A stretch of DNA of 64,000 nucleotides, from assembly GCF_964355755.1 (NCBI RefSeq), contig NC_092673.1, positions 13,645,001 to 13,709,000 of the forward strand. The letters are read 5' to 3'. A program made the translations under genes and the position numbers. Of the stretch, positions 13,111-51,867 are shown piece after piece. Every line of letters starts with the position of its first letter. The first letter of the stretch is position 1. The stretch is from Antedon mediterranea. Its lineage: Eukaryota > Echinodermata > Crinoidea > Comatulida > Antedonidae. The notes under the pieces were generated by a model. The model was given only the letters and a program-made list of their open reading frames with translations, had not been told where the DNA came from and did not search any database.

Positions 13111-13281
13111 GCTATGAAAGTGAAATATTAATAAATCATTATTTTTCCAGCTTGAACCATTACCTAAAAAGGAGATGAATAAATAATGTCATTATCACTT
13201 CTCATTATTGGAATACATGTACAGTCGATTTCTCTCATTATTACGTTATACTTCAACGTAAAAGGTTCATACAGTACCACT

Positions 13282-15725: not shown

Positions 15726-15920
15726 CGTGAACGGACGTGTTCACGTGGAGCTCTCTAAGCTACATTTTGTTTACGCTTCTGCTCACCTTGCTACCCCTCA
15801 CTGGCATTCATCGCCTGTAATACTTTTGGAGCATCAGAGCCACTCCTTGGGCCTAACTCGCTCTCATACCATCGCTGAACCCGGAATTTCAATCAGCAAT
15901 TTGTGTTCACGGAGCAGAGT

Positions 15921-16899
15921 ATGGCGGCGGTAAGATGTGCCATTCTAAATTTTCGTTTTTTAATTGCACTGACTTGTACTGTTATATTTATGATTCATAG
16001 TCCTGATAAATCATTACCTATGAAGTTATATTCATCAATTAGTGGCGACGTGCATAAATATATGTATTATAATTACATCGATCAGTACGGGACACAATCT
16101 TTTGTTTTTCGCGCTATTCACCCTCCATTTATCATCAACAATGGATTCGTAGCCAGGCCACACAAACGGAAATTTTTCAAAGCACCAACACAGTACTATC
16201 CAAACTCAACCGCCAACTTTAAAGTATTGCTCACGTCCGGGGATGTCCATTCTAATCCAGGACCAGTCAACAAATCTGACAAATCCCGTAGTGATCGACC
16301 AACCAAAAAATCTGTTTCGGTTTTACTCTCAAACTGTCGCAGTATTCGCAATAAGTCTCTTGATTTGGCTATTTTCTGCGATACTAAATCAGATGGATTA
16401 GACATTATATGCTTAACGGAAACATGGTTGAACTCCGAGGATGATACGCAGATGTTACATTTTTCTAATAAATTTGACATTTTTCGTCGCGATCGCGAAT
16501 CTGTTACCCGTGGCGGAGGTTTACTGATTGGTATAAACAGCACATTGCAATCAAAGGTTATTGCATCTGAACTGAACATTGAAATGTTATGGGTCTCTAT
16601 CACATGTCACAACAAATCGCATCTGTTATGCCTTGTGTACAGACCCCCAGACTCAACTGTTTCTTATTGGGATCAATTTGAATTTGCACTAGCTAGCCAA
16701 GAACATTCATTCCATAAATATGAATCGGTTGTCGTTTTGGGCGACTTTAATATCAATTGGCCAAATGCACCACATAAATTCATCGACGTGTTAAACATGT
16801 ATGGTTTCGATCAATTAGTAAACCAAAATACTCGACCTTCCACAAACGCTAATGATGGCTCACAGATAGATCTCGTGTTCTCAAACACGGGAGCCTCAG
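15921..16899 (+). pseudogene. non-LTR ORF2 N-terminus: leader, 2A peptide and APE endonuclease (first part)
   Basis: The ATG at 15921 (gagtatgg) opens a frame of about 327 codons. Residues 1-25 are hydrophobic (FLIALTCTVIFMI), like a signal or anchor. At residues 107-115 lies GDVHSNPGP, a 2A ribosome-skipping motif, followed by an APE endonuclease: LLSNCRSIRNKS (catalytic Asn), ICLTETWLN (catalytic Glu), RGGGLLIGINS, LVYRPPDS, VVLGDFNINW (Asp/Asn) and QIDLVFSN (Asp). The frame ends at the MITE target site. Removing the MITE with one TTA restores codons into the SDHHAI block at 18020. 2A motifs upstream of the endonuclease are known in sea urchin and other CR1/L2-like elements. In those families the motif splits the leader from ORF2 during translation. 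Confidence 0.85.
16242..16265 (+). other. 2A ribosome-skipping motif (DVHSNPGP)
   Basis: The codons spell GDVHSNPGP with the Gly-Pro junction at 16260-16265. The consensus is D(V/I)ExNPGP; the Glu position is His here, a variant tolerated in some elements. It is preceded by the hydrophobic, Thr/Ser-containing KVLLTSG, the usual upstream context. It lies about 114 residues after the ATG, separating a short leader polypeptide from the endonuclease-RT protein. Confidence 0.85.
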
Positions 16900-16902
16900 T
16901 AA

Positions 16903-17980
16903 GGCCCTGTTCAGACCCATGGCGTTAGACCGTTTTAGCGTACGACGCTAAAAGAATGTGTGTCTGAACAGTTGGGGATTAGCGTACAACGCGTCGTACA
17001 ACGGTTGTAGCGTTGTAGTGGAAAACGGTTGATAGTACCGTTTTAGCGTACGACGCTACTGTAAGTCAACGTTGTATCCAATCAGAACGTTTCCTGTTAT
17101 GACGCGAAACAAGGTTTGACCTAGGCTGACATCTTGTATCGTCAATGTGTGAGATGGATTTCAATAACAAAAAGGCCAGAATAAATAAGGCCTAACTACA
17201 CTACAAATACAACTGTTACAAAGGCTACAAACTATTATCAACTGATTACCATTATATTTTCTAACAAATGACATAAATACATGCACCTTGTATTTAAACA
17301 TAGGGACTACGATCCCATCCGCTTTTAGGCCTAGCTAGGCCTAGAGCCATTCACGCATTTCATTCAAGCTAAAAACTAGCGTGGGACATCAAGTCACTCA
17401 TTCATACAAGGCAGACTAGACTGGACAAGTTTAATGCTGAAAACCCCCTAACTCCTAAAAAAAATCAGTAAACAAAAACAAGGGGAGCTGTGTCCCTTTT
17501 ATTAGCAAGTTAAGGGTTATTTTCTACCGACTGGACCAAATAATATATATCTTTGACTGGATTGGATAGACTAATCACAATCATTTTTTTCTTCATTATT
17601 ACGAGGCCTGCTTTATTTTCGTAACACAAGAGCCTGGGGAAAATGTTTTTTACTACAAAATAAAAACAATAGAAACAGAAATTTGGCTTTACTATATTTT
17701 TCTTAAATAAATGCTGAGGTATGTTTTATTTACGGCAAATTTTGTCATAATTGTAGGGCTGAGATCTAGGCCTATATACAGTGGAAATAATGATGAAAAC
17801 ACGTGGGTAAGAGCACATGAATATGCAACTAGAAACAACCTGGATGACGTACTTCCGTTTTAACGATAATCGTACGCTATGGGTCTGAACACCTCGTTTT
17901 TTTCTCTGCGGTTTGTAACGTGACCTTGATAGTAACGTTGTACGCTAAAACGGTCTAACGCCATGGGTCTGAACAGGGCC
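16903..17980. mobile_element. PIF/Harbinger-type MITE inside the non-LTR element
   Basis: Terminal inverted repeats of more than 40 bp, starting GGCCCTGTTCAGACCCATGG, are nearly perfect at both ends. The flanks are TAA (16900-16902) and TTA (17981-17983), a 3-bp TWA target duplication with one substitution. Deleting element plus one TTA rejoins the host ORF in frame (Ala-Ser-Val-Arg-Asn-Ile-Ser). Subterminal repeats of cgttttagcgtac occur at both ends. There is no transposase, so it is non-autonomous. TWA duplications and GGSC-type ends are characteristic of PIF/Harbinger. Confidence 0.85.
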
Positions 17981-17983
17981 TTA

Positions 17984-18957
17984 GAAATATAAGCGTCGTT
18001 GACAATCCAGTCGAGAGCGACCACCATGCAATTGAATTTGATATCGATTGTCGTCTCTGTTTACCAACTACATCCACAATACGCTCATTTATTAAGTGGA
18101 ACAGCGGTGACTTCCATCATCTAAATAATCTCTTGCATTTGGCACCTTCCAGTATGTTCTTTAACGAAAATGACGTAAACGCATTATGGAGTGGCTTCAT
18201 GGACATTATTGATGCCGCAGTTCGCGATAGTTTCCTGAGGGTCAAAAGCAGAGCACGTACACAGATCAGTCCATGGATAACTAAGGATATTAAACGTATG
18301 ATTCAGAAGAAAAAGAAACTTTTTAAAAAATCTAGACGCTCTGGCATACAAGAACACTGGGATGCTCACAAGCAATGGCGAAACAAAGTTCACTATGCCA
18401 TCAGGAAATCATATAAGGATTACGTAAACAATTTATTCAGATCCGCTGACAATAAAAAACGTTTTTTTGCGTTTGTGAAAGAAAAACGTTCATCTTCTTT
18501 ACCCAGTAAATTTATTAATCCAACGAATAACTCTCATTACTCCAACATTGAAGACATTGTAAAGGGTTTTAATCTTTATTTTACTTCTATTTTTAATGAT
18601 GTTAACGTTCATTTTAATTTTAACGAACCTCCCCTCTGTTCTCTTAAAATCCCTGTACTTGCTGATATTTCATTTAGTCCGAATGATATAATTAACACCA
18701 TATCTACTTTTCGGTCTAATTCCGCCCCTGGACCAGACTTAATATCAGTCAAATTACTCAAGCCGATATCGCATTCAATTGCCTATCCCCTTTGGTTGCT
18801 GTATCGTACTTCCCTTAATACTGGTACTGTGCCCAATGATTGGAAATGTGTAAATACTATCCCAGTTCATAAATCTGGCGATAAGGCAGCGATAACTAAT
18901 TATAGACCAGTGGCCCTTTCCTCATTGGTGTGTAAAATTTTAGAGAAGATTATCGAT
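17984..18957 (+). pseudogene. non-LTR ORF2 continuation: endonuclease end, linker and RT start
   Basis: The frame resumes after the MITE with NPVESDHHAIEFDI, the catalytic Asp-His of APE endonuclease. A basic linker follows (ISPWITKDIKRMIQKKKKLF) and the N-terminal RT block: FRSNSAPGPDLISVKLLK, WKCVNTIPVHKSGD, NYRPVALSSLVCKILEK. A one-base insertion at about 18957 breaks the frame before the next block (NFTYDNGLLNPNQHGFV), which continues in the adjacent frame. Confidence 0.85.
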
Positions 18958-18959
18958 TA

Positions 18960-20059
18960 ACTTTACGTATGACAACGGTTTACTTAACCCTAATCAACAT
19001 GGTTTTGTCAAACATAAACCTTGCGTAACTCAACTCAATAATGTTACCTATCACTGGTCAAAAATTCTTGACAAACGTGAGCCAGCAATTATTGATACTC
19101 TGTTTTTAGACATGAGCAAAGCATTTGATAAAATGCCCTTCGACATCTTATTAACAAAAATTGCTGTAAATTTTAATATTCAAGGTAATATCTGGAAATG
19201 GATATCTTCATACTTGACTGACAGGAATCAGAAAGTTTGTTTCAGGGAGGCTACTTCTTCCGTACTTCCAGTTACATCGGGTATACCTCAGGGCAGTTGT
19301 CTTGGTCCAATTTTATTCAATATGTTTGTGAACGATGTTAATCATAATGTTTCTTCTGAATGTTTTCTTTTTGCAGATGATATAATACTATATAGACACA
19401 GACAAAATGCCAACGATATTGTTAATTTGCAAAATGATATAAATATTTTATCTAATTGGGCTGATAAGAATCAAATGAAATTCAATGTCAACAAAACTAA
19501 ATTAATGCATATCACCAGAAAGCGTAACTTTGTTAAGCCGTTGCACTTTCTTAATGGTGAGACAATTGCGGTGGTTGATAGCCATAAACATTTAAGAGTA
19601 GGCCCTACATATCGATTCTAAACTGAATTGGAATGTTCAAATCGATAATCTAATATCTAAAGCTAATCGAATGTTAGGCTTTATTTTTCTGTAGCCGGAA
19701 ATTGTTCTCCAGACGCGATTTTGGTGCTACCTATTCTAGAATATGGTTTGCCGGCGTGGGGCCCCAGAAATGGAGGACACATAAAACGCCTCGAACAGGT
19801 TCAGCGACGGGCCTCAAGACGTATTCTGGGACCCCACTGCGGACCTATATCATACGACGAACGTTTAATAACTTTGGGTTGGTTATCCTTACGTGATAGA
19901 CGTTTAATGATTTTAATTTCCTTTATATTTCGTTGTTTTTATAATGTAACTTTTTGTAGTACTGTAAATAATAATATCCATATCAATCAACGCCATCGTA
20001 CCGATACTTTAAAATATTCGTCTATCAACAATTTTCCTGGTCATCACTACCCTCCATAA
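18960..20059 (+). pseudogene. non-LTR reverse transcriptase core and C-terminus
   Basis: Reverse transcriptase motifs are all present: LFLDMSKAFD (first catalytic Asp, about 19110), SGIPQGSCLGPILFN and FADDIILY (catalytic Asp pair, about 19370). A small insertion-linked frameshift at about 19600 follows SHKHL, after which the next block (HIDSKLNWN, then ISKANRMLGFI) continues. The C-terminus ILEYGLPAWGPRN and QRRASRRILG follows in frame from 19721. Between 20059 and the tail at 20352 lie the decayed end and 3' UTR. Confidence 0.88.
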
Positions 20060-35924: not shown

Positions 35925-36901
35925 GGATCTCAATGGAGATACAAATAAAATGCAAAAAGCTAAATCAAAACGATAAAGTAAACAGCCAGAAAAGTTAGCA
36001 GAGCTTTCGGGCAACACTAGCCCTTCATCATATAGATGCGTTGAGACAGCAAAAGTGCTCAATTGAACTCAAGAGCGAATATATATTTATGAATTAGATA
36101 GAACACGGGCGTCTATTACACGGTGTTTCACGTTAAACGATCTTCAGATAGACTGAACAATACCGTATCTCGAGGTGTTATAAGGCTTTAGTCAGGTGGT
36201 ATGTAAATTTTCTTGTTATGACGACATTTTGAAATCAGTTCAGACCTTTTGTTTAACAAATTTGTTTTGTTTGCATTTAGAATACATAGCTTTTCATCTA
36301 AACAAAGACTAAAATGCCCATAAGCGGCGTTCTTAGTGGAGAAATATTTAATTACTTTCCATTTAATTGTGAACATTACGTCATTACTTTTCAAAGACCA
36401 TACGTACTTTGAGAGCTCGGATTCTTTACTGTACGTTTCTTTTTTGAACGATTTCTTGTGATTGTTAAACCTAGTTTTAATAAACTGCCCACCCGTCATA
36501 CCAATATATGTCTTAGTTTCGTTATTGGTTATGACGTTGGCGGAGTAGACAATTTCAGATGCGAGGCATGAACCATTTAGGGGGCATTCGGGTTTGTTGC
36601 GGCAATTGCACGCACTTTCTCGTTCTGTATGGGGGTTCAGTACATTGTGGTTATGCTTGCTAATTACATTTTTTACACATGGCATACAACTATAGCTTAC
36701 TTTAACATTGTTCTTATTAAATATTTTATGTAATACGTGTCCATTGGGAAAATGTTTTTTAATTAATTGTAAAAAGGTTCGTGCAACATTTGTCTTAATG
36801 TTCGTACTGAATGGTGGGTTGAACCATATTATGTTTCTCCCTCTGTTTCTTCTTATACCGGATGCGGAGTGGTGGGTGTAGAGTAAGTTATCTTTGTGTT
36901 A
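35925..36901 (-). mobile_element. 5'-truncated Penelope-like retroelement with GIY-YIG endonuclease
   Basis: On the minus strand a frame runs from about 36901 to a stop at 36188-36190. It encodes NIIWFNPPFSTNIKTNVART, then NNVKVSYSCMPCVKNV, a Cys-rich knuckle (CNCRNKPECPLNGSCL) and a GIY-YIG core (TYIGMTGGQFIKTRFNNH, with KSELSKYVW-like helix downstream). This is the C-terminal region of Penelope-like elements, where a reverse transcriptase is followed by a GIY-YIG endonuclease. The RT is missing: the match ends at 36901 next to unrelated DNA. A 3' region of about 260 bp follows the stop. An ATG at 36685 would give 165 codons but the homology extends further upstream. Confidence 0.85.
35990..36035 (-). 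ncRNA. hammerhead-ribozyme-like motif in the Penelope-like 3' region
   Basis: On the minus strand tgatga (36025-36030) is followed by a stem aGGGC-tagtgtt-GCCC, then gaaa (36005-36008), then a tiny GC-tct-GC stem and taa. This is the order of the hammerhead core (CUGAUGA, helix II, GAAA, short helix III, NUH). Penelope-like elements are known to carry hammerheads with minimal helix III. The first core C is an A here and I see no clear helix I pairing, so this copy is probably inactive. Confidence 0.4.
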
Positions 36902-37009: not shown

Positions 37010-37400
37010 TGTCAAATTTCTAAAATTCATCTTTTACCTCTGACCTCAATTTGATTGTTTTGACCCATTGAAAACAAAATGATCATATCTTTGCAACGCT
37101 TAGATTAAATGAAATAATTTTAGTGTCAAATTATTTGGGAGATGCATATTAATATTCGTTCTAATGGAAAAGTTTGTCCAAAAATGGCTGGAAGTATGAT
37201 TTTTTGCATATTTGACCTTTGACCTACATATCATATAACTCCGTAACTAATAGTTGGACAAACTTTAAATAGGGCTCAAATTAATCTGGAGGTATATGTT
37301 TCTATTCAGTCTAATGAGAACTTTTTCAAGAAAATGACCCGAAATATTTTTATTGACCTTTGACCTGTACTGGTAGTACATATTTCTATAATCTCAAAAA
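37010..37400. repeat. degenerate tandem repeat with DR1 motifs
   Basis: A unit of about 150 bp is repeated two to three times with heavy divergence; each holds a (c/t)tgaccTttgacct word (perfect at 37213-37225 and 37354-37366) followed by an ataactccgtaacta-type phrase. The perfect words are direct repeats of AGGTCA with one-base spacing on the opposite strand (DR1). The same repeat type is at 55.8-56.1 kb and inside the element at 7.6 kb. Confidence 0.55.
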
Positions 37401-37879
37401 CTATTGACCGTAAAATGGTTGTTTTTGTGAAATGGTTCGAAAAATTTACATTTATATGTTGTATAATAACAACATTTTATAGAAGTGTAAAAGAATTCTA
37501 TTTATGATCACTAACTTTGTAATTTATTAACATCACTAGCATTTGTTATAATATTAAAATGTGTCATATTTGCTGATTTTAAGCACTTCACATGAATTTA
37601 TCAGAAAATATGTGTATTTAATATAAAATTTATTTTTTTTTATATAAAGAAAATTTAATTGTCTATCAAATAAGACTATTTTCAAATTATTATGGCTAAA
37701 ACTTAATTAGATACAGGCAAAAAAGTGTATTTTTACTTATGTGAACAGCACCCTCAATCTTCATTTTTCCCCAAAAAATACCACATTTTCATGTGGTTTC
37801 ATAAACTTAGCTGGTTGTAACTTTTTAAAAGATTTGTTGTCAGTGACGTGTAACTTCTAAGTAAGTTTCTGAGATAAAA

Positions 37880-38230
37880 TGAAAACAATATTTTTATAGC
37901 TTGATATTTTTCCTGAGGTTATTACATGGTGCATGCTAAAAAGATTTTGATTTTGTGCTAAAAATACATCTTTTTGGTCCAGTACAAACAATCTTGTACA
38001 GCCATTCTTACACAAACCGCATATTTTATTGGAAAGATAATCATAATATCTATCCAATAAAATATGAATTTTGTGTATTAATATCTGCTAGATAGCTTTT
38101 ATTAAACCAAAAAGATGGACTTTTAGCTCAAAATTAAAATATTTTTTTTGATGTGCATCATGTAATAACCTCAACAAACATATCAAGCTATCGGAATATT
38201 TTTCTCAATTTTTTCAGAAACTGACCTAGT
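37880..38230. repeat. long hairpin-forming inverted repeat
   Basis: tagcttgatatttttcctgaggttatta at 37897-37925 pairs with 38167-38195 (taataacctcaac, atatcaagcta), and the complementarity continues inward (atctttttggt / accaaaaagat). At the centre attttattgga and tccaataaaat form a further hairpin near 38022-38065. This is a small foldback insertion between the putative left end of the 11-kb element and the transposase promoter. Confidence 0.7.
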
Positions 38231-39064
38231 ACGTTATAAAAGTGGTATGTTAAGTGTAAAACCATCGAAAGATGGCCGACCAACCATCATGCCATCTTGG
38301 ATTTTATTAACGTTCTAAACAAACGTACGCGGAATCTTCCGATTAATTTAAAACGCCCGCTTTTGCATCCACGGCAGCAGCTGTTTCGTGATTGGTTAAG
38401 AATGCCCAACTACAGCCAATGAGCTTCTTTCAAAGCGGACAGGAAGCGAACGTAAACAACACACGTCATACATCACACACACGATACACACATGTCAAGC
38501 CGATTCTAGGCTAGGCCGGCCGACCGAGAGTGTTTACATTTTCTCCGAAGATGAAAAGTTGGTTTTAAAGCCTCATTTACAGTTTTACCTAATGAAGTTT
38601 TTTGCATAAAACCTAATATGATATAAGCCCAATTGAAGGACAATGGTAGTAGTAGACGGCAAAAGACGAGAGCACCTCTTGAATGGACCTTGAATGATGA
38701 TGGATTGCCTTGAATATCACGCATCGTGCATTAAACTAAAAAGGTGGACAATTTGTACCTGATGAAAAAAAAAACGGGTAAGCTCTACTTTTTTATTCGT
38801 GACTCTAAATAATGGCCATCATATAAACTGTAGTACAGTATTATTAAATATATGAATTATATTATTTATTTAATTTAACCTTTTGTTTACTAAAAATACT
38901 GCTGTTAATTCAAGTTACAAGCTTGACTTATATATTACTCAAACTTTGTTTACTCGACCATTACTGGGCAGTAGCTAGGCCTACCTATGGTACCAGTCGA
39001 GTTTTAGGGGCTATACCAATTACCTTTATATATATTATATACTTACTATCTTTTATCTTTGCAG

Positions 39065-39129
39065 ATGGAATATTGACTTGTTGTGGCAAGAAATGCAAGG
39101 AATTAAAAACTGATTTTACAGCATTGTAG
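39065..39129 (+). other. possible short exon with CCGKKC
   Basis: After an acceptor (tttgcag) an open stretch DGILTCCGKKCKELKTDF runs to a stop at 39127-39129, with AATAAA-like signals following near 39228. It could be a terminal exon paired with the donor near 38776 (gggtaagct), giving an alternative short transcript from the transposase promoter. The Cys pattern is suggestive but too short to assign. Confidence 0.2.
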
Positions 39130-40214
39130 ATTTATGTTGCATTAATAATAATTCTATTTAAACATAGAAGAATCTTAAAATGTGGACCAAGGAGTATTGT
39201 TCAGATTTATAAACATTTTAATTGTATAATAAATAATATATGTTTTAGTCAATTTGAAAGAGTAGGGCCTATATAATTTTATATTTATTTAATTTCTTGC
39301 TGAATGAAAATAAATGAATTAAATGTACACTTGTCTCAATGCTATTTTTTATATTACACACCTAGTCAACCATTTTCAAACATTGGCCTATTTTTGTTCA
39401 CCATTTATTTATGATGTAGCTGTCTACCTAGTTGTTGAAATATTGGATGGTTATCAAGCTTGGTTAAAAACAATGGCCAATACTGTATATACTTATATAG
39501 GACAGGCAGCTCTATCATTGCAAAAAAATTTCAAAAATTTGTCTGTCCAGCGTCAGCGTGTGACACACTGACATGACCCTTTGGAAAATCCATAGAGGAG
39601 GCATGCGCGTCCTCTGGGACACGTTGGTTTGAGAAAAAATCGAGTTGAATACAGTGCAGTTGTCCAGTTGGATAGTACAGTATAAGGTTTTCCGAACAAT
39701 GCCTAATGCGTGCTGTATTTGAGGGTGCAACAGGACCCCAACATCCCACCCACATGTATCCTTTCTCCTTTTTCCAAGCCAAGTGGACCAAGTGGAAACT
39801 TTAAAAAAATGGGAGGATTTCGTAAAATTAACTAGAAAAGGATACATCTGGAAGCCGTCTCATAAAATATGCACCGAGCATTTTTGTATAGAAGATAACA
39901 TAAACCACACCGAAATGCAAGAGATGGGAAAGAAGGGGAAAAAGATAAGATACCGTCTTCGTCCTGGCGCTTTCCCAACATTGAAATCGCCAGTAATAGA
40001 AGAGAATAGGGATGATAGCACGAAGCCAAAAAAGAAGATGCGGACCTGTAATCGGAGGCGAGAGGTCAATAGGGTAGGCATACAGTACTCAAATCACAAA
40101 ACATTTTGTTTATCATAAATTGCCCAGATAGAATATTGGTATTGTACTAAAATACAACTTACGAATAGAAACAATCTCCATTTAGGCCTAGGCCCTAATT
40201 TATGAATTGAAATA

Positions 40215-40745
40215 CAGTAGAACCTCCATTTTACGTACGGTACGGGACCGAAAGGCGTACGTAAAACAAAGGATTCGTAAAATCAAGGTTGACCTTAAAT
40301 TGACCCCAAATACGTAGAGATCGTAGCTATAAAGGCTACCCTGTTTGTCTACTTTATTGAACAGGATGCAGGTTGTCACTAGCTAGGCCTTGCCTAGACT
40401 ATTCAGGCCAGGCTAGGCTAGCAGGCCTAGCAAGATGTGAGGCCTAACTAGAAAAGTACAGTACTGTACAGTATATACAGGCTGTGAGATGTTTAAATAA
40501 AGTTTAAAATATCAATGTTCTTGTATTTTCTATCAATAAAAACAGTCGCTGCTTAAATGCACGTGCGTAGCTTGACTCAAACACACAGCAGAATTCCACA
40601 CACAGCCATGATTGTGGCTTTGTGTGCTTTGTTGTTGTTAAATTGCGCCCTCAATGTAAGAAAATGATGACGTCATCGGTTATTTTAAGCGTACGTAAAA
40701 TCAAGGGAACGTAAATTCAGGGTACGTAAAACACAGGTTCTACTG
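40215..40745. mobile_element. Tc1/mariner-type MITE in intron 1 of the THAP-DDE gene
   Basis: Ends CAGTAGAACCT and its complement (aggttctactg) are flanked by TA on both sides. The subterminal words are tacgtaaaa and gtacgtaaaatcaagg in opposite orientation at the two ends. 531 bp, no coding sequence. CAGTAG-type ends with TA targets are usual for pogo/Tigger-like elements. A TAGGCC island (40385-40445) and gatgacgtcatcgg lie within. Confidence 0.85.
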
Positions 40746-42514
40746 TATAATAATTGTGGATAGAAATAATCTCCGTGTAGGCCTAAACTTCTTCGTAGAT
40801 GCATGACGGCTAATTTAAAAATAGCAAAATTTTGAACGCGCGTTACGCACAGTACTTTTTAAATTGCCGTACGAAATAATGGTATGCGGCATACAGGGTC
40901 TAGCATTGTCACTAGACTCTATAACTTATTATACCGTCTTAGGCCTACAATCGTTTTAGATTAGTTCAATCTGGTAAATACGCATAGGCCAAAAAAACGC
41001 AGAAATTATTTATTTATTTCTTCTTTTTTTTCAGATTTTAGCCAGCCGTGGTCCAAGTACATCGTCGGTATGTAGGCCTTTTTCACGGATGGCAAACAAT
41101 GCTGTGCAGGGAAGCGTAACCAACAGAAATAACATAGCACACCACAGTGTATAAAAGCATAATAGGCGCCGCAACTGCATCGCGGGAAAAACGGTGGTGA
41201 CAAACGCTTATGCTTATACACGGGTGTTTTTTTTTAGGGATTTTAAGCGAACAAAAAAAACAATTTCTAATTTTTTTTCAGACATACAGTGATGTTTTAG
41301 GCCAATCTTTTAAGAAAATGTTACAGTAACTTTATTTTCTCATACGATCATCCATCCGTTCAGGGGTTACAATTTTTTAATTAACATGGTGTCTTGAAAT
41401 CCAGCACAGCATTGTTTGTCATCGGTCGAAGATGTCTTCCATTTCGTGAAAAGGCTTATACAAAAAGTCTATGCCTATCTACCAATTAAAATTAATGCAG
41501 GGAGTCATTAGATTAATTTTGATTAAATCCCTATGGAAATTATTTCTAGTACTGTTTTTTAAATGTAATAATTACTATATTTTTGTACATAGGCACAAGG
41601 ACAGTATGTGCAGTCTTCAGGTAATGCCAATATTAATACTAAACTTTTTTACATTGATGATTCTGTCTTCACTATCAAACTACTATGCTTACATATGATG
41701 GTTCTATGACATCATCATGTCCATATATGGGCACATCACATTTTTTTGTCACATAAAGTTTGACAGTGTAGACAGAGCTTAAGGCCAATTGTTTTTATTG
41801 CACACTTATATATCTTGATTTGATGTCAATCAAATACTTGTCAATGCTGTTTTTTGACATGACAAATTTACTTCACAATAGATTCAGATGATGAAGGAAG
41901 AAATATAAGAGGCACACGTGGCGCATTCAATTTATATTCGGAATCCGACAGTGATAGTGACCATGACGATGCAGATGCGGACTACATTGCTCCAGATGAC
42001 CAAACAGATTATATAGAACCAGCGGATACTGTTAGAGATCAGCGAAAATATATCGTTGGTCAAAGAGAATTAATGGCTCTCTTTGACAGGTGTCGGCAGT
42101 GTGGAGGGAAAGCAGATAGAAAAATAAAGAGAGAGTGTGGAACAGCAGTAGAGATAGAGTCAAAGTGCAGAAATCGAAGTTGCGACTATCAATTTGAATG
42201 GATGAGCCAACCAAAACATGGAAAAATGTTTTTGTTTAACATTCTTTTGTCTGCCGCTATTCTTGTGTCATGTAAGATAAGGTTTATTCTTTTTAATTTT
42301 TATGAAGGCTTGAAATAATCTAAAAGTTTACGGTTCAATCAACATGGACACTATTTACAGTACATAAATACATTTTTTTATATTTCTAGGTTGTTGTATA
42401 ACACAGTTTTTAAGAGCTATAAGATTTTTAAACATTGCAGTTTTTACTGATAGAACATATTTTTACCACCAGAAATGGTAAGTACAGTACAACTATTATT
42501 ATATTTTTTAAATG

Positions 42515-42665
42515 GTCTATCGCATTCATTTACTTCTGCTGCCTCTCGCTTATGGAATGACCTACCCGCCTCAATTCGATCATGTTCTTCTACTATCGCC
42601 TTTAAATCTGCCTTAAAAACTCAAATTCAAATTAGCTCTCTCATACACCGTGCCTTTAATCACTT
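42515..42665 (+). pseudogene. LINE ORF2 C-terminal fragment in an intron
   Basis: The frame FTSAASRLWNDLPASIRSC followed by FKSALKTQI is the conserved C-terminal sequence of many non-LTR ORF2 proteins. It lies wholly in the intron between the exons ending at 42477 and starting at 42757, and its orientation matches the host gene. Only about 50 codons remain. Confidence 0.75.
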
Positions 42666-44571
42666 ACTGCTGGAATTGGCGCTTTACAAATTCGTATTAT
42701 TATTCACAGCAATAAACGCTCATTGGAGCTCGATGATGTGTTATGTTTTTTTTTTAGGTATTTGCTGCCAGCTGTGTCCTGTGTTTTCGCAGCGCAGAGA
42801 GAACACAATTTCAAGAGCAACATGAATATTTCATGTGATATGCGCTGCGATAGCCCAGGACATACAGCCAAGTTTGGCACGTATACCACAATTGATGCAG
42901 ACACCCATAAAGTAATCCACATTGAAGTGGTCCAAGTAAGTCGTCAAGTCAAATTTTCTCCATCTTCATTGTACCATAATACTTTACCTGTACTGTGCTT
43001 ATAACAATGTTGGACATGCCACCTCCTAAATTATTGGTAATAACTTTTTAACTGAATTTGTTTTACAGAAAGATGAATGTTCGAATTCACCAGCAATGGA
43101 ACTGGAGGGGCTGAAAAGAACATTGATGGTTTTAAAAGGTTACGGAGTTACCGTGGAAAGAATTGTTTCCGACAGACATAGTAGTGTAGCTGCCTACCTC
43201 AAAAATTCCATGCAGAATATAATACTCTACTTTGATGTGTGGCATGTTGCTAAAGGCAAGTATTTAACTACTTCAATTCATCACCTTTGCTGGACCAGCA
43301 CTAATATGGTTATTATTATAAAATTATACACTCAACTGTTCAGTACAGTTGTCCATTTAATTGCCAACAATATTTTTGATTTTTTTAAAAATAAAAAGCG
43401 TGTATACTATTTGAAGATGTTTAATATGATCAAACTGCTTAGTTAAATAAATATAAAAACTGTATTTTCTTAAATTGACATGCAGGTGTAAAAAAACAAT
43501 GTCTGAAGGGTGTAAAGCTTAAAGACTGTGACCAGATAACAAAATGGATCAAATCTATTGTAACTATGATTTATTGGATTGCGTCAACTACACCCGAGAC
43601 TAAAGATTTGAGTTACGACAAGGAACTAAGAGTCCAAAAATTTAAAAGCATATACAATCATGTAAGAGGGATACATGAACATGAAACTCCCTTGTATCCC
43701 AAATGCATGCATGGTGAACTGGAAGAACAGGATTACATTCTCCCAAGTAAGTATCTCATGTGTATAATTAAGTAGTAACCAATCTCAATCAAGGTGAAAA
43801 TTGCACACTGACAAACGAACATTTTACAATTTTATAATGTTTACTGTAATGTCTAAACACATGATTTGTTATTATCTCGAATACAGGCTCTAAAGCTGAG
43901 GATTCTGAATTCTTCATATCTTTTAAAATCAGTTCAACAGTTATCACCTACTATCCAGACATATTCTAACGAATCATTCCATCAAGTTATCAATCACTTC
44001 GCTCCAAAAATGCATCCATACCGTTTCAAGGGAATGATTGCAAGGTAGTATTATACATCTTCCCAAAACAAGCTAAAAAATGAAACAAACAAAAATTACT
44101 CGAGTCATTGGAATGGTGAAAGACAAACAAATTTTGTTACTATTTTCAGAACGTACATTGCTGCACTGCATTGTAATGAGAATGCCAGCAAGAAAATAAA
44201 AAAGGCGAGAAAGAGTATTCATTGTGGTATTCTAGAGCCAAAAAAGACTGGGTGGCAAAAAAACATTTAGTTAACCCCACTTTTGGTAAGATTGATTTAT
44301 TTATTTAAAAAATATAACATAATTATATGTTTTCTGTAATCGAAAAGTCTTATTATTATTTATTTGGTTTTCCTTTCAGAATACGCAATTAACGTCATTG
44401 AAATGGCAATGTACATGGCAAAAACAAATACAAAAGAACTATATTACACACCAGAGATAATGTGTGACCCAGGCACTATTGCAGAGAAAATGCCAAAACC
44501 TGACAAAAATGAGTTTGTAGCCCAGTTACTAAGCAGATTTAAACCTACAACATAATGAATTGGAGTCTACT

Positions 44572-47500
44572 TTATCTATCCAATGGTGGATATTTGAACC
44601 CTGTGTAATTGTTGGCTTCATCTGGGAAAACATCTCGTATTTTTTTCATAACACAAGATGGCATTGGTATTCTTCGGTCCTTGCCAAGAAACCCCCAGCA
44701 CCAACGTACAAATTGGCGGTATGCAGTATATCTGTATCGCCTGGAAAAATGTACAAACAAAAGAAAAATACATGTTATTGTGTTCAAATTATTTATTTAT
44801 TTGTCTTGTAAGATTCCCGTCATGTACATTCCTCCAGTTGGAAATTAATAGTAGATTGATATACATATGATATGATGTAATATATTTTTACTTTGCTTTT
44901 TACTTTTACTCTGTACAGTACCTTTCTATTGCACCTTCCACCACATGTTCTTGGTATTGCGAGACATACTGCCAATACGCAATTTGTAGTGTTGCTGGGT
45001 TTAAAATTGCAGGTTCGAACCATGGGTGTGTTGTTACGCACCCAGTGTGCTGAGGTCCCTCCTTATTTTTGTTGTTGATTTTTTCTACCTGTAACAAAAT
45101 ACAAAGAAAACATGTAAAAAATTAATTTAAAGCCAAAAAATAGTTGGTCCGAGTCAGATTTAATGGGTTTTTGGTTATATTAAGCCATTTATTTTGTCTT
45201 TTTATTTACTAAAACTGTAAAACGGCCTACTATACCGTACTATATTCGAAATTTGATTTTATATCTTCATTCTTCATGTGACAATGCAATTCTTGAATTT
45301 GTGTTTTTTCTGAAAATAATTAATTATTAGAAATTAATATTACATGTTGGCAACAGTATCTATTCTCCCATGTTTCTTCTTCCACACAGTTTCCACATTC
45401 ACACCTATTTAAACAAAATCATAGATTACACATTAATGTGGCTCATTGTTTCCTACTTTCGCAACGTGTATAGTAGAGCCCTAAATATATACAGTAGATA
45501 ATTAATATGATTTGTGAAAGTGTAGTTGCAGTAATTTTAATGTACTGCCTAATTTAATTAATTATGCCTACATTTAGTCATTACATAATAATAGGTTGTA
45601 CTAGCATACTATTACTAGCCTAGACCTAATGTACAAAATGCTAATATGGTGGACTGCCTCTCTGCTTAGCTAGCCTACCATACATACCTACTATACTAAT
45701 CTACTCTGTAGTCTATTTTTTATATTCTAAAAGTAATTCTCCTACCTAGCCTAAAATAATACTAATAGTAGCCTACTACTAGGGGTGTGTAGAAAGCGAC
45801 GACCTCGAATTGGACGACCCCAACGACCCGGGCGACCTCGAATTGAACGACCCATAACACGAAACCGACGACCCTTATAGCCTAGCCTAGGCCTAAGTGT
45901 GGTATAACATCCCGAAGCCGAACATAGCCAAAGATCTTTAAACTATACCTTATTATATAATACTCGCAAGCAAGCAATTGATTGAAAAAATACAGAAATA
46001 TCGCCATTTGATACTGATTGTGTCGACACGAACAAACGAAAAGATATGGAACGCCAAAAGTGCATCATTAAAACTGCATTCGACATATTAAAAATAAATT
46101 AAAAAGAAATAAATATTATACAATACATGGTTAAACCATGGACGTATAATTACATCTCGTCTTCTTATAACGAACACTATAGGCCTACCAAGCAGCGTAA
46201 CATGTGCATGGGGGGATATGACCGGTTGGGCCGCCGACAAGTTGAGCCGCCGGTAATTTCTATGAAACGGCCAGTGCGTCTTTTACGACATTTCGCGTAG
46301 TGATAGAGTGGTGTCCTAGTAGGCCCTACATAAGTTCATGGTCTTTAGGTTTATTGTGTCATGAAAATAAATAATAATTACATACTACAATTTTGTTGGT
46401 TTGAAACAGCAAAGGAAAGTAGTCATATTTAATAATTTAATTGTTTTTAATCTTTCAAGGTAAAAATGCAGTGCACTCCATAATATTTTTCTCGCGTGTA
46501 TGCCTACCACGTAAAATCACGTTGTCTCTCAGGACTAATAGAGTATTGATATTCTTCGAATGAGGTTAAATAATTATTATTTTTTATTTACTATCTTTTA
46601 ATATCATATTTTATTGAATTTTACAATGTTAATACACAAAATATTTTACTAAAAAACGGTGATTTTATGCAATTATTTTACTTCAACTGCCGCCTGAGGG
46701 GGCAACATGTTTACGTCATTTTTGGCTAAAAACGATCATTTTCGGTCATGTTTTAGGCCTTATATTTTGGAATCTACAAGTCAGATATTCATAATTATTT
46801 CTCTTTAATTATAATATTTAATAATATATACTAAAAACCGTGATATATAAACTTTGGAATATACATCGTTATATCTAATAATTAATATAAATAGAACTTC
46901 TATTAAATAGAAACGAGCACCAGCGAAAGTAAGCATTTGACGTTTCATAGAAAATAACGTTTTCTGGCGGCGCCTCAACTTGTCGGCGGCTCAACTTGGC
47001 CTAATCCTGCATGGGGAGGGCCATAAGAAAGCTTTACATTTCACACATGCATTGTATACGGTCAAACCATGGAGGTATAAAAATATTTTTACCAAACCAT
47101 GGAGCTGGTCAAACCATGGATATACCTCCATGGTCAAACCTTACCTGCTGCTGAAAAAGGGGCCTGGTTTGCCATGTTTATGATATTTCGTGTGCTAATC
47201 GAGTCGAATGCAGTTTTAATGATGCACTCTTGGCGTTCCATATCTGTTCGTTTGTTCGTGTCAACACATTCAGTATCAAATGGCGATATTTCTGTATTTT
47301 TTCAATCAATTGCTTGCTTGCGAGTATTATATAAGGTATGGTTTAAAGATCTTTGGTTATGTTCGGCTTCGGGATGTTATACCATACTTAGGCCTAGGCT
47401 AGGCTAGGCTATAGGGGTCGTCGGTTTCGTGTTATGGGTCGTCCAATTCTAGGTCGTCCAATTCGAGGTCGCCCGGGTCGTTGGGGTCGTCCAATTCGAG

Positions 47501-48150
47501 GTCGTCGCTTTCTACACACCCCTACTACTAGGCCTGGTAATTATAATAACTACAACTTCCTGATACTGATAGTACTAGTCTAACTAGCCAGGACTAGGCT
47601 AGGCTATATCATATATGAGCCTAGGCCTATAGTAGTAGTAGGACTATTGAATATAGCCTAGGCCTCTAGCTCTATCTCTAATATAGCTAGGCCTAGTAGC
47701 AGGTGGACTATATTTATATAGGCCTAGCTAGGCCTAGGCCTCTGTACTAGGATAGGCCTATGTTAGCTAGCCTAGGCCTAGTAGGCAGGACAGGGAGGCT
47801 TTATTTTCGCGTTGAGTACAAAGAGTGAAAAATCGAAAAGGTGGGAACAGCAGTAACTCCAAAAGTAGGTCTAAAAAAACGGAGGGTCCCATCACATCTC
47901 TCTTACTTATCGCTTACCATTCTCGACCTTGCCTAACATGCATGTTAGGTGGAAGCCCAAACCGTTCGAATTCCCTGGCCCGATGAGCGTCAGGAGGTAG
48001 GCCTAGGCCTAACCGATCGTCTGCTGCGGGCCTTTGCAATGGTGGTAGACGTGGGTCATTATCGAACGGTCTTAAATTGTCAGGATTTACTGGTAATAAA
48101 TCTTCTTCTATTTCTATATCCGCTACAAAATATTCCTCTTCACTATCCAT
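44572..48150 (-). CDS. stand-alone P2X7 cytoplasmic ballast-domain protein (intact, four exons)
   Basis: Exons on the minus strand: 48150-47918, 45404-45344, 45088-44922, 44740-44572. All have GT-AG introns and matching phases, giving 630 bases, 209 residues plus stop. Residues 1-77 are acidic then Pro/Arg-rich (MDSEEEYFVADIEIEEDLL). The domain starts across the first junction at WCECGNC, continues with NRYCCQH, GCVTTHPWFEPAILNP, RYTAYRQFVRWCWGFLGK and PSCVMKKIRDVFP. The ordered Cys/His residues are those of the zinc- and nucleotide-binding ballast of vertebrate P2X7; the channel segments are absent, so the protein is soluble. An upstream in-frame ATG (48255) would add 35 residues. Similar stand-alone proteins are widespread in invertebrates. 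Function is unknown. It converges on the THAP-DDE gene and probably shares its transposon. Intron 1 holds an hAT-like element. Confidence 0.88.
45782..47522. mobile_element. hAT-like non-autonomous element with 8-bp target duplication
   Basis: Ends GGGGTGTGTAGAAAGCGACG and its complement match closely over about 300 bp (45782-46090 against 47190-47522). Perfect TACTACTA duplications flank it (45774-45781 and 47523-47530). Subterminal arrays of ggtcgtccaattcgaggtcg words occur at both ends, as for hAT transposase binding sites. Near the ends the minus strand of the right arm resembles an exon found complete at 59.66-59.81 kb (MERQECIIKTAFDS). It sits in intron 1 of the P2X7-domain gene and contains a nested element. 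Confidence 0.85.
46222..47001. mobile_element. MITE nested in the hAT-like element
   Basis: Inverted ends contain gccgccgacaagttgagccg on the left and the complementary words at 46965-47001, continuing to tttctatgaaacg / cgtttcatagaaa. No coding sequence is present. The exact boundaries and target duplication are unclear. Confidence 0.7.
47560..47800. repeat. TAGGCC-type low-complexity island
   Basis: Dense taggcct/ctaggc words as at 9.2-9.6 kb, immediately after the hAT-like element and within intron 1 of the P2X7-domain gene. Confidence 0.7.
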
Positions 48151-48249
48151 TCCAAAATAATGATAAAAATAAACTAAACACTCCTCCGTCGATAGTGGAA
48201 AAAAAATGGCGTCGGGGTTTCTCCATAGCGATCGTCGTGTAATTGATAT

Positions 48250-48560
48250 TTTCACACATGCGCACTGTATCTACGTTTCTCCAGCTTCCCGGTGCAAAAC
48301 GTTAGTCAATTTGCAGAAGATTGCCATAAGAACAGATTTTAAAACTCATTTTAAAAAATAATCGGTTGACAAACAAACAAAAATTTTATCCGAAAACATT
48401 TAAAACATATTCATAAACAAAAATGTAAAGCGGATAAGCCAACGCTGTAATAGTATAGAGCCAATCTGCAAAAGTCTGTGAATGACGCATTCTCCTAATG
48501 CAAATTTTTCTTTTTGTGACGTCACAAAAAGATTTTTTGTCACCGATTAGAGGGGGACCC
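48250..48560 (-). promoter_or_regulatory. candidate promoter of the P2X7-domain gene
   Basis: Upstream of the start lie cagtgcgcatgtg (near 48261, NRF1-like on the minus strand) and a CRE palindrome gtgacgtcac (48517-48526) embedded in a longer inverted word ctttttgtgacgtcacaaaaag. The same two landmarks in the same spacing order occur at 32.25-32.52 kb. Their conservation between diverged copies suggests regulatory function. No TATA box is evident. Confidence 0.4.
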
Positions 48561-49167
48561 AGACATCCATAATATTTAGCATGAAGGTCACTGACATGAT
48601 TCTATGCGTACTTTCCGATAATGAAACTAACTCATTTTTTTTAACATTGTTTCATATCCATTTTAAAACAAAGTTTTTGGGAAAAAAATGAAGATTGAGG
48701 GCGCTGTTCACACAAGTAAAAATACACTTTTTTGCCTGTATCTTATTTATTATAAAAAATGGCCACCATTTTTAATTATGCAAATTAAGGCCTTAGATGG
48801 CCGAATTTCGCTTGGGATCCGCCATATTCGTAATCAGCGAGGTCGAAATATCCTAAATCAAGTGGATCCCAGCTTCTACCCAAAAATGCTTCTTACACCA
48901 TATTTCAGAGGAAATAGAACTTGTCTATTAATACATATGTTCCTTATGCTGCCTCACCAAGTTGTTATATAATTACAGTATATTGAATTTATAATAAATA
49001 AAAATTATTATTAAGGTAAGATATGTACTAAATTAATAAAATATTGATTAAACTACTAAACTGTATTTGAAAATGACACATTCATACAGTATTTATAATT
49101 AACAAATGGTGTACAAAAATAAAATTAAAAAAACAAAGCTTATTGGTATTTGAATTACTTTTTAAAT

Positions 49168-51795
49168 TAAATCGTGAGGTATGCTGCAATAGCATCTCTT
49201 ATTTCAGATGCTGTTTCAGGTCGGTCATTAATTGGATCTTCATCGGGTTGAATCAAACCATGCTGCACCTCTTCATTTATTGTCACATCCACTGTGGGTT
49301 ATACACATCTTTGTGAATTTCACAAAAGTTGTGCAACACACAGCAGGCTGCAACAATGTCACTTGAAAATATTGTGGAGGTGTCGTTGCGCTTAAGTAGT
49401 CGTCTCCATCGCCCTTTAAGTCTTCCAAAGGCGTTTTCCACTACAACTCTGGCTGAACTTAATTGCCGGTTGAAATGACGTTGGAGTTAGGTTGTTGTTG
49501 TTGATGTAACCTTTCATCAACCATGGCTGCAACGGATATGCAGGATCGCCAATTAAACACACTGGGACATTCAACCCACTCAACTGCTTGTTTTTCTACA
49601 AACACAAAAGGGGAGATGACATATTATGTACTGTACAGTATCTAAATTGCATTTCATGTAAAATAAAATGTTTTATGTATAGTAATATTCAAACATGTTT
49701 AAGAAACGTACCTCTGCACTGAAGAGTAGGCCATTGTTGTTGGCATCTAATTCAGGCAGAGCTGAGTGGGCAAAGACCCTAGCATCGTGTGTGCGACCTG
49801 GCCATCCTGCATATATATCAGCTGTTCAATTTTTATCAAGAATGGTGTGTGTGTGAAAGAATATCATTCAGTTACTGTTAAGGATACAGTATACCAGTTA
49901 CAGTAACTTATAAATTAATTGTTATATGGTACCTATACTTATGGTCCACAACGGCTTGAAGAATGATGCTGTACCATCCTTTCCTGTTGTGATAGTCCGC
50001 CTTGTTCTCTGATGGGCCGAGAACCGGAAGGTGGGTACCATCAAGGCGCCAGCACATTGTGGAAAACCTTTCTGTTCAAATCCACTGATGGTATCATCTA
50101 ATCTCTGACCTGTATATTTGTAAATAAAAAAATGCCATTTGGTAAATGATAAAATAAATAAGTTGTACAATATTGTACAAAAACATGGAAGATGAGGATT
50201 AAAAAAAAACTTTGAATAGGCCATTTTGCAGTTTCAATAAAGTTAATCATTTTCGTAGAAAGAAAATACAAAATAATCGAATAAATTCAACAAAGAACTT
50301 CTAGTCAATTTGACTTTTTTTTTTTTAAATTACTGATTTTTATGATCCAAGTTTTTTTTCAAGGGAAAAATAACTATGTTGTATTTTTATAATAAAAAAA
50401 AAAAAAATTCGCATATACCCTTTGGCAGTGAAATATAGCGTTGAAGAAACTCTCTATTCTTTAAGGCAGCCACAACTTGATGTGCTATTGTACATAGCGT
50501 CGATATTCCTATTCCAAACATATTGGCCAGTGACCTGACAATTTAAAAAAAAGCATTTTGTTATAGTCAGGTAATATAGCTAATAACATTTTGAGTTATC
50601 AATTATGGTAATGGTGCAGAGTGAATTTTCATTATGCCTATCCATATTACGGGCCATATTATAAGGGAAATTAAATCTTTTTTATAAGTTTTTGTTTTGT
50701 TTATATAGGCCTAGTAAACATAGTAAAAGCAAACTATTGACCCCTAAACAGATGATGAAAATTGTAACAAAATGTTACAATTTCCTCACAAGCAAAAGCC
50801 CTTGGCATTTGCACGCATCGGCTATATCATTCATTTGTGACTCTAACTTCTCGGTGTGTAGGTGCTACGTGTAATATGCTCACATATATGGCCTAGGCCT
50901 AGATTAAAAAGATATAGGAAATAATTCTGATATAGCCTTATATTTTTATTGACTCATGTAATGGACATATATCTAATTCCAAGGTAGGAGTAAAAGAATT
51001 TAGAGAATGTAGGAGGCCTATATTTAGTTACAAAAAGGAGTGGGCTGATCTCAGTAATTAATTATTTTTTATTTTATTTTATTTTATTCAATCGAAACCA
51101 ACAGCGATAATTACCGCCACTAACAGGTTTGATACAAACAAAGCTAGGACTGTTTAAAGCACCTTGATTGGTCCTGATATTGATCAAGGGCTTCTCTCGT
51201 CCAGTGCCCACCTTGACCAATTTACTAATTGATTGATTGAAGGGAATCTTTGTTATTCCTATGTATGCCATATAGTAGAATGAAATAAATTATTAATCAC
51301 TAGAGAGATAGATACAATACAGTACCTATATTCAGTTGGCGTTGCCAACCACCAAAGAGTAATTCCTACTCGTTCATGAAATGGGATTGATCGCCGGAAA
51401 TTTGTGTCGCTCTTCTCTATCTCGGGCCTCAATAACTCGCATAAATTATTAAATGTATCGCGACACATGCGGAAATGCGAACGAAAAATTTGATTATTAT
51501 AATGATTGACTTCATAAGTCCAAAATAAACGTCCATACTCTCTGTTTCGAGCCCATAGGCCTCGCTCGATCGTTGAAGATCTGACGGTCGCCGCGATCAA
51601 GTGGGCCGTGATGGTTTGTTGCTGCAGCCTACAAAATCTCTCACAACGACGGACGCGTCCTTTTCTGAAATTGGAATTGCTTTCATTTATAGAAAAACTT
51701 AACTGTTGATTGGCGTTGTTGATTTGTAATAAAAAAAGGTAATTATTTGATAACATGTGATTAATTAGTAAAATTGATTGATTTTGATGGTCCAT
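49168..51795 (-). pseudogene. PIF/Harbinger transposase gene (HARBI1-like), degraded
   Basis: Minus-strand exons at about 51795-51326, 50534-50419, 50109-49933, 49810-49712 and 49595-49168. Exon 1 ends LWWLATPTEYR; exon 2 has SLANMFGIGISTLCTIA (DNA-binding helix); exon 3 has KGFPQCAGA then [20 protein letters not shown] (first Asp) and [10 protein letters not shown]; exon 4 has GWPGRTHDARVFAHSALPEL; exon 5 has LIGDPAYPLQPWLMKGY (second Asp), [20 protein letters not shown] (Glu) and [12 protein letters not shown]. These are the DDE landmarks of PIF/Harbinger transposases, which need a Myb-like partner. Frameshifts near 50046, 49480 and 49300 and an unresolved exon 3-4 phase show it is dead. 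I could not define the element's inverted ends. The MITEs at 16.9 and 29.6 kb have different ends. Confidence 0.85.
50540..51320. other. intron 1 of the Harbinger transposase remnant
   Basis: Noncoding AT-rich sequence; 51105-51200 has moderate complexity (cagcgataattaccgccac) without a recognised family. Confidence 0.5.
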
Positions 51796-51867
51796 CGTCG
51801 CGATGTAAACGAACAGAATAGAGGGCGGTATTTATATTTTTATTTACAAAACTCCGGAGTTGCTAGG

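Follow-up and report, generated by a model that had tools for sequence, protein, structure and literature searches.

A P2X7 ballast-domain gene carried with a THAP/DDE transposase gene in Kolobok-type transposons of the crinoid Antedon mediterranea

We analysed a stretch of 64,000 nucleotides from the 354-Mb genome of the crinoid Antedon mediterranea (NCBI RefSeq assembly GCF_964355755.1, contig NC_092673.1, called C4 here; C4:13645001-13709000, forward strand), referred to below as the window. With high confidence, the window holds a Kolobok DNA transposon of the Kol0 kind in decayed form, a two-gene element in which a transposase gene is accompanied by a gene for KolX, a protein matching the cytoplasmic ballast domain of P2X7. 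Comparison with the rest of the genome supported the view that Kolobok-type TTAA transposons carry the ballast gene as their second gene; many copies have it, and so do the 11 families compared, without exception. An earlier note on the window had paired a THAP/DDE transposase gene with an intact P2X7 ballast-domain gene, had proposed the latter as a transposon accessory gene, and had suggested a search for further copies with both genes; the pairing was confirmed, the ballast gene's place as second gene of the transposon was supported, and the search succeeded, but the element proved to have other ends than those proposed.

The gene pair, its copies and their ends

The ballast gene of the window consists of 4 minus-strand exons with GT-AG splice sites throughout, and its open frame encodes 209 amino acids (aa). 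As examined by Pfam search, the 209-aa protein matched P2RX7_C (PF20478, E=3e-19), and its matches among solved structures at E<=0.01 were four distinct sequences, all of them P2X7, the best being rat P2X7 (6u9v, residues 450-594, E=1.4e-14). The transposase gene lies tail to tail with it, the two stop codons being 16 bp apart. Codon 8 of the window THAP exon is an in-frame TGA, which the earlier note had not mentioned and which was absent in the related copies on C1 and C4. Between the window and the C1 copy, 3/630 sites differed in KolX, 16/1746 in the transposase exons and 58/5702 elsewhere (0.5-1.0%); these copies are therefore fairly young, and a selection test between the two has no power. 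An apparent frame shift in the C1 KolX was an artefact of an exon-2 match one base short, and nothing was concluded from it. With its left end lost and its transposase stopped early, the window copy is probably unable to move on its own, although it still has an intact KolX frame.

Genome searches with the window KolX and the window transposase gave 113 and 105 matches, respectively. The P2RX7_C profile (70 matches), the KolX of family D (97) and the transposases of families D and E (104 and 91) were added; new rows were chosen by eye, and all these counts are lower bounds for repeats. Merging same-strand matches less than 6 kb apart left 100 KolX loci and 78 transposase loci. A transposase locus was present within 10 kb of 43 of the 100 KolX loci, with the two genes convergent in 41 cases, divergent in 1 and on the same strand in 1. 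When the KolX positions were rotated per contig in 1000 trials, a mean of 0.535 pairings and a maximum of 5 were obtained (for C9 and C10 the last match was taken as the contig extent). The present count supersedes one based on fewer searches, in which 33 of 93 ballast loci were paired, all 33 of them convergently.

Families A to K were then compared, the window element belonging to family A; one copy was used for each, and two loci for K. KolX was found downstream of the transposase on the opposite strand in 11/11 families. The P2RX7_C profile matched in families A, B, C and D, and KolX was recognised by alignment in all 11, including family K, where it had been missed by every KolX search.

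The ends of the elements were determined from alignments of independent copies. They read TTAA-AGTGCTAGTGCC in family B, TTAA-AGGAATCCAG in D, TTAA-AGATGATATGAAAC in F, TTAA-AGATCATGGAAC in both C and X (a family without transposase match, described below) and TTAA-AGGACAACTG in E, where one end per copy was found. The termini were TTAA-AG...CT-TTAA in B, D, F and C/X and TTAA-AA...TT-TTAA in A, in agreement with the Kolobok pattern 5'-RR...YY-3'. A TTAA was present on both sides where the copy alignments end in A (C1 copy), B, D, F and X, as in the Kolobok target duplication; the 12 TTAA-flanked copies that were tabulated had been located by patterns containing TTAA. Among families G to K, one TTAA end was read, in G, and a blind search of 11 loci at a strict threshold gave no TTAA-bounded inverted ends.

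Two family B comparisons showed 99.98% and 99.75% identity over about 4.7 kb, and family D copies were 99.98% identical over 5.3 kb, so that copies of B and D have moved recently. In the empty-site test, each of 12 copies had its two flanks connected through a single TTAA, and the resulting sequence was compared with a limited set of available sequences. Two of the 12 (L003 and L012, both within repeated units) matched unoccupied neighbours at 94% and 96%, and the other 10 had no empty site in the small set compared. With several families and young, near-identical copies carrying both genes, this genome shows the pairing with unusual clarity. The dozens of copies on many contigs, several of them more than 99.7% identical, together with the TTAA ends and the two empty sites, make it scarcely credible that the window contains two host genes, one for a THAP protein and one for a ballast domain standing alone, flanked by repeats by chance, even though the KolX frame is intact and spliced and stand-alone ballast genes are reported to be ordinary genes in many animals, partly with conserved neighbours (Rump 2020, PMC7016195).

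The earlier note had taken as element ends an inverted repeat of about 62 bp at 37709 and 48682, flanked by TTAA on the left and TTTA on the right. The repeat is real: its arms (37705-37778 and 48674-48747) are 74 nt long at 92%, its score of 108 bits is far above chance (42.8 for the best of 30 dinucleotide shuffles), and both convergent genes sit between the arms. An 11-kb transposon ending in this repeat is nevertheless extremely improbable, and this boundary was rejected, because neither the C1 nor the C4 copy begins at this repeat, and the C1 copy does not end at it either. Both the C1 copy and the C4 copy (from 14210930) align with the window from 38250 rightwards and not before it; the alignment places the junction between a dispersed palindromic repeat and the element at that point, so that in the window copy the repeat has taken the place of the left end. 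Both copies start with TTAA-AATGGATATGAAACAATATC, and the 133 bp (TTAA included) by which they extend beyond the window remnant are missing from the window. On the right side, the TTAA is present in the window, the end GTTTCATATCCATT-TTAA is common to the window and the C1 copy, just inside the right arm, and it mirrors the C1 left end TTAA-AATGGATATGAAAC.

The left arm is internal to the dispersed repeat, which runs on for about 650 bp beyond it on its outer side. A genome search with a 62-base probe gave 101 first-look candidates; 40 were scored and 40/40 matched, the window's own 2 arms included, and 13 pairs among them were spaced about 650-710 bp, as were the repeat's own two arms in four fetched copies. 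The repeat copies at C3:3594600-3596600 and C11:9440500-9442500 were 98% identical over the fetched 2 kb, with no end reached. The TTAA/TTTA flanks belong to this unrelated repeat and are coincidental, not a target duplication. Hence, what the earlier note had named as grounds for refutation, boundary repeats that prove to be unrelated dispersed repeats, did occur, but for the boundaries only, and its proposal to align copy ends yielded TTAA flanks and two empty sites at ends that differ from the 62-bp repeat. Elsewhere in the genome, the palindromic repeat is longer than 2 kb and has many copies, with arms about 91% complementary in one of them.

Superfamily placement and known systems

In the alignment of transposases from five families, D131, D198, D219 and H222 were invariant, in agreement with the DDE and C/DxxH signature of Kolobok, and the catalytic E stands in NESFHQ/VEGYHS-type stretches of the translations. 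The N-terminal THAP domain of Kolobok (PF05485) was detected in families A, C, D and E; PF05485 was not found in the 616-aa single frame of family B, the only B frame scanned. Kol0 is characterised by a second gene, KolX, with the P2X7 ballast fold, and the product of the second gene here is predicted from its sequence to have that fold. It is very likely that the element is a two-gene Kolobok of the Kol0 kind.

The Kol0 lineage (Kolobok-1_XT type) carries, as here, a DDE transposase and KolX as second protein, with the fold of the P2X7 cytoplasmic ballast (Kojima & Bao 2022, PMC9587614). The same source gives the superfamily the TTAA target and RR...YY ends that we observed, and prints the distribution of Kol0 as vertebrates, annelids, cnidarians and sponges; the families described here are new to the lineage. 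XKol of Xenopus (PMC6004289) likewise has THAP and DDE domains, TTAA duplications and AG ends, in elements of 6.8-13.9 kb, and the main text of that paper does not use the terms KolX or P2X7. In KolobokP, too, the Kolobok transposase gene is followed downstream by a second gene in opposite orientation, but the latter encodes a His-Me finger nuclease and the element has long terminal direct repeats (PMC9587614), in contrast to P2RX7_C and short inverted repeats here; KolobokP was thus rejected. So was piggyBac, which also uses TTAA: no piggyBac model matched the family-B 616-aa transposase at E<=0.01. The Pfam matches of that protein were MULE (7.9e-5), DUF7511 (0.009) and DDE_Tnp_ISL3 (0.0091), all below their cut-offs. 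The P element transposase shares the combination of THAP and an RNase-H transposase, but its GTP-binding domain is built into the protein, and the account of it in PMC7776569 mentions no KolX.

Small proteins consisting of the ballast domain by itself have been described across animals; in several phyla two markers lie next to them (Rump 2020, PMC7016195). These proteins, including zebrafish nanor, have the same domain (ZCD), with the zinc-ligand cysteines and the positions of R546 and R578 kept; that work treats them as ordinary genes, and its main text contains no word beginning with "transpos-". Kojima & Bao (2022, PMC9587614) report that P2X7 arose when a P2X4-like gene was fused to KolX, and they regard zebrafish nanor as a likely domesticated KolX. 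The suggestion in the earlier note that such transposons offered a source for capture of the domain by P2X7 was therefore right in essence but not new, since that paper had already concluded that P2X7 captured its tail from a transposon.

A remnant of a P2X7 gene was also considered for the window and rejected. The P2X_receptor matches fell in two places of the genome, C3:4.196-4.201 Mb and C3:6.669-6.721 Mb, and no listed KolX match was within 1 Mb of either, although some stretches read N and absence is unproven. By these sequence searches, no P2X7-like fusion appeared in the genome, which would be in line with capture in vertebrates.

Co-inheritance, unpaired loci and the role of KolX

Maximum-likelihood trees of KolX and of the transposase from the 11 families shared the forks A+F, G+H and J+K. 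Both trees divided A, F, B, C, G and H from D, E, I, J and K, and no fork conflicted; the rows that cover under half of the columns are E for KolX and F, J and K for the transposase. Families B and C were mutually nearest by identity for both genes. The KolX and transposase distances correlated (Mantel Spearman rho 0.375), and 28 of 5000 permutations gave a value as high. Between the sister families A-F, B-C, D-E and G-H, KolX had nonsynonymous divergence (dN) of 0.19-0.57 and synonymous divergence (dS) of 1.5-3.5. The seven zinc-ligand cysteines were kept in 7/7 families recovered across all seven columns, E, F and J being incomplete there. The arginine matching rat R546 was kept in 10/10 families aligned at that position, with lysine in the raw translation of K, and the R578 equivalent in 10/11. 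These results showed that both genes are under protein-level constraint and have non-conflicting histories. Co-inheritance trees of KolX and transposase were not found in the parts of PMC9587614 that were consulted; the evidence for co-inheritance and constraint, and the testable guess on KolX function given below, are additions of the present analysis.

A number of observations weigh against reading the element as a two-gene Kolobok transposon with KolX as a partner. Within 10 kb of 57 of the 100 ballast loci there was no transposase match, and seven of the 57 were read (L014-L016 and L032-L035), the other 50 being unread. On the other side, for 36 of the 78 transposase loci no neighbouring ballast match was listed; four of the 36 were read, and in one of these, L027 from a tandem trio on C5, no KolX was found in the unit read. 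In family L (L032-L034) a possible second end was seen in L033 only, with one end in L032 and L034, and the L034 end reads GTAA instead of TTAA. In L006, L010, L011 and the C4 copy one of the two ends could not be located, and with its left flank gone the window copy has no readable target duplication of its own. As for the trees and the constraint, the B+C fork is present in the KolX tree only and unresolved in the transposase tree, dS between the KolX sister families is saturated, and family K has lost one paired cysteine, where it reads F.

Of the unpaired ballast loci read, L014-L016 (family X) are elements of 3.1 kb bounded on both sides by the Kolobok ends of family C. Their KolX carries two in-frame stops in all three copies, and the same stop pattern was present in 16 listed rows, L014-L016 being those of them that were read. 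KolX is also present in L032-L034, where no transposase matched; TTAA-AGCAGAAATGTC is their common end, with GTAA for TTAA in L034. L035 is a truncated pair. The earlier note had held that ballast genes regularly found without a transposase neighbour and with non-matching flanks would refute it, and 57 of 100 do seem to lack the neighbour, but the seven read were Kolobok-ended or a truncated pair. Many of the unpaired KolX loci are probably non-autonomous or broken copies. The four unpaired transposase loci that were read were a truncated copy on C4, two family K loci in which KolX is present, and L027.

Families X and L appear as Kolobok-ended elements that keep KolX sequence without a detectable transposase. 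The C5 trio is a tandem array of Kolobok-type transposase genes at intervals of 7 kb (C5:15230975, 15237984 and 15244982), and could be a domesticated, duplicated gene.

In the mechanism that we propose, the transposase would bind the element ends through its THAP domain, and its DDE domain would cut the element out and paste it into TTAA. KolX, with its zinc-stabilised fold, would be a positive accessory protein of transposition that acts with the transposase and not a passenger, and we consider such a working partnership probable. The alternative that KolX has no role in transposition and is carried because it lies inside the ends is unlikely: families X and L do resemble deletion derivatives that keep KolX without a transposase match, and the three family X copies read have the two in-frame stops, but the constraint between families acts at the protein level, seven cysteines are kept in the seven fully recovered families, the trees do not conflict and KolX is retained in 11/11 families compared. 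KolX could also counteract the transposase and so limit the element's own copy number. Such a brake would agree with the constraint and the co-inheritance no less than a helper does; we regard it as distinctly improbable.

For the partner role of KolX, one specific form can be suggested, which is improbable: KolX might be a guanine-nucleotide subunit that serves the Kolobok transposase in trans. It would bind GTP/GDP and help to position the ends or the TTAA target, the GTP function thus being placed in a separate protein. This guess is made by analogy, together with the two conserved arginines (the R546 and R578 equivalents). The THAP/RNase-H transposase of the P element needs GTP, bound by an internal domain (PMC7776569), and the P2X7 ballast holds a guanosine nucleotide (PMC7016195). 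Against it, GTP use is described as unique to P among the transposases studied (review, PMC7776569), and the other guanosine contacts of rat P2X7 are not kept outside mammals (Rump 2020, PMC7016195). If the guess were true, P2X7 would have inherited its guanosine pocket from a transposon. What KolX does in transposition would also help to explain why the tail of an immune ion channel binds zinc and guanosine.

Feature coordinates and other elements of the window

The coordinates of the features are collected in Table 1.

Table 1. Features of the Kolobok element and of adjoining or nested repeats, in window positions.
Feature	Position	Strand	Basis or remark
Kolobok element (family A), window remnant	38250-48666	+	aligned with C1:35315270-35323610 and C4:14210930-14216389
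True right end: GTTTCATATCCATT then TTAA (48663-48666)	48649-48666		similarity with C1 copy stops there
Transposase THAP exon	39699-40070	+	PF05485 E=1.6e-9; 3' border approximate
Other transposase exons	41885-44555	+	frames, exon-wise genome matches, five-family alignment; D, D, DxxH, E motifs
Transposase exons, approximate borders	41885-42271, 42391-42477, 42759-42935, 43072-43257	+	
Transposase exons, approximate borders	43486-43747, 43889-44045, 44150-44267, last to stop 44553-44555	+	
KolX/ballast exon 1	47918-48150	-	splice sites and frame
KolX/ballast exon 2	45344-45404	-	completes WCECGNC zinc-ligand motif started in exon 1
KolX/ballast exon 3	44922-45088	-	splice sites and frame
KolX/ballast exon 4	44572-44740	-	splice sites and frame
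Dispersed palindromic repeat, part	37056-38253		95% to C3 copy; displaced the element's left end; contains the 37709 arm
74-bp fragment of dispersed palindromic repeat	48674-48747		outside the element; right "terminal inverted repeat" of the earlier note
Nested insertion CAGTAGAACC...GGTTCTACTG	40215-40745		TA duplication; absent from C1 and C4 copies
Nested insertion, long inverted repeats GGGGTGTGTAG...	45782-47522		8-9 bp target duplication TACTACTA(G); absent from C1

Two insertions are nested in the window copy. The C1 copy shows the empty sites of both, and the C4 copy stops short of the second. The first is about 530 bp long, has CAGTAGAACC ends and looks mariner-like by eye. The second (1.7 kb) sits in a KolX intron and by eye is perhaps a MULE-type non-autonomous element; it apparently contains another repeat, with inverted arms at 46207-46252 and 46968-47013.

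Outside the element, four further features were noted by eye. A leucine-rich-repeat frame followed by a TIR-like frame at 13183-15184 (+) resembles a Toll-like receptor gene, and endonuclease-like and reverse-transcriptase-like frames at 15879-19621 (+) resemble a non-LTR (long terminal repeat) retrotransposon. A 236-aa frame at 36188-36898 (-) looks like the GIY-YIG end of a Penelope-like element; a 165-aa part of it had no Pfam match at E<=0.01. At 51259-51831 (-), there is a frame resembling a Harbinger-type transposase.

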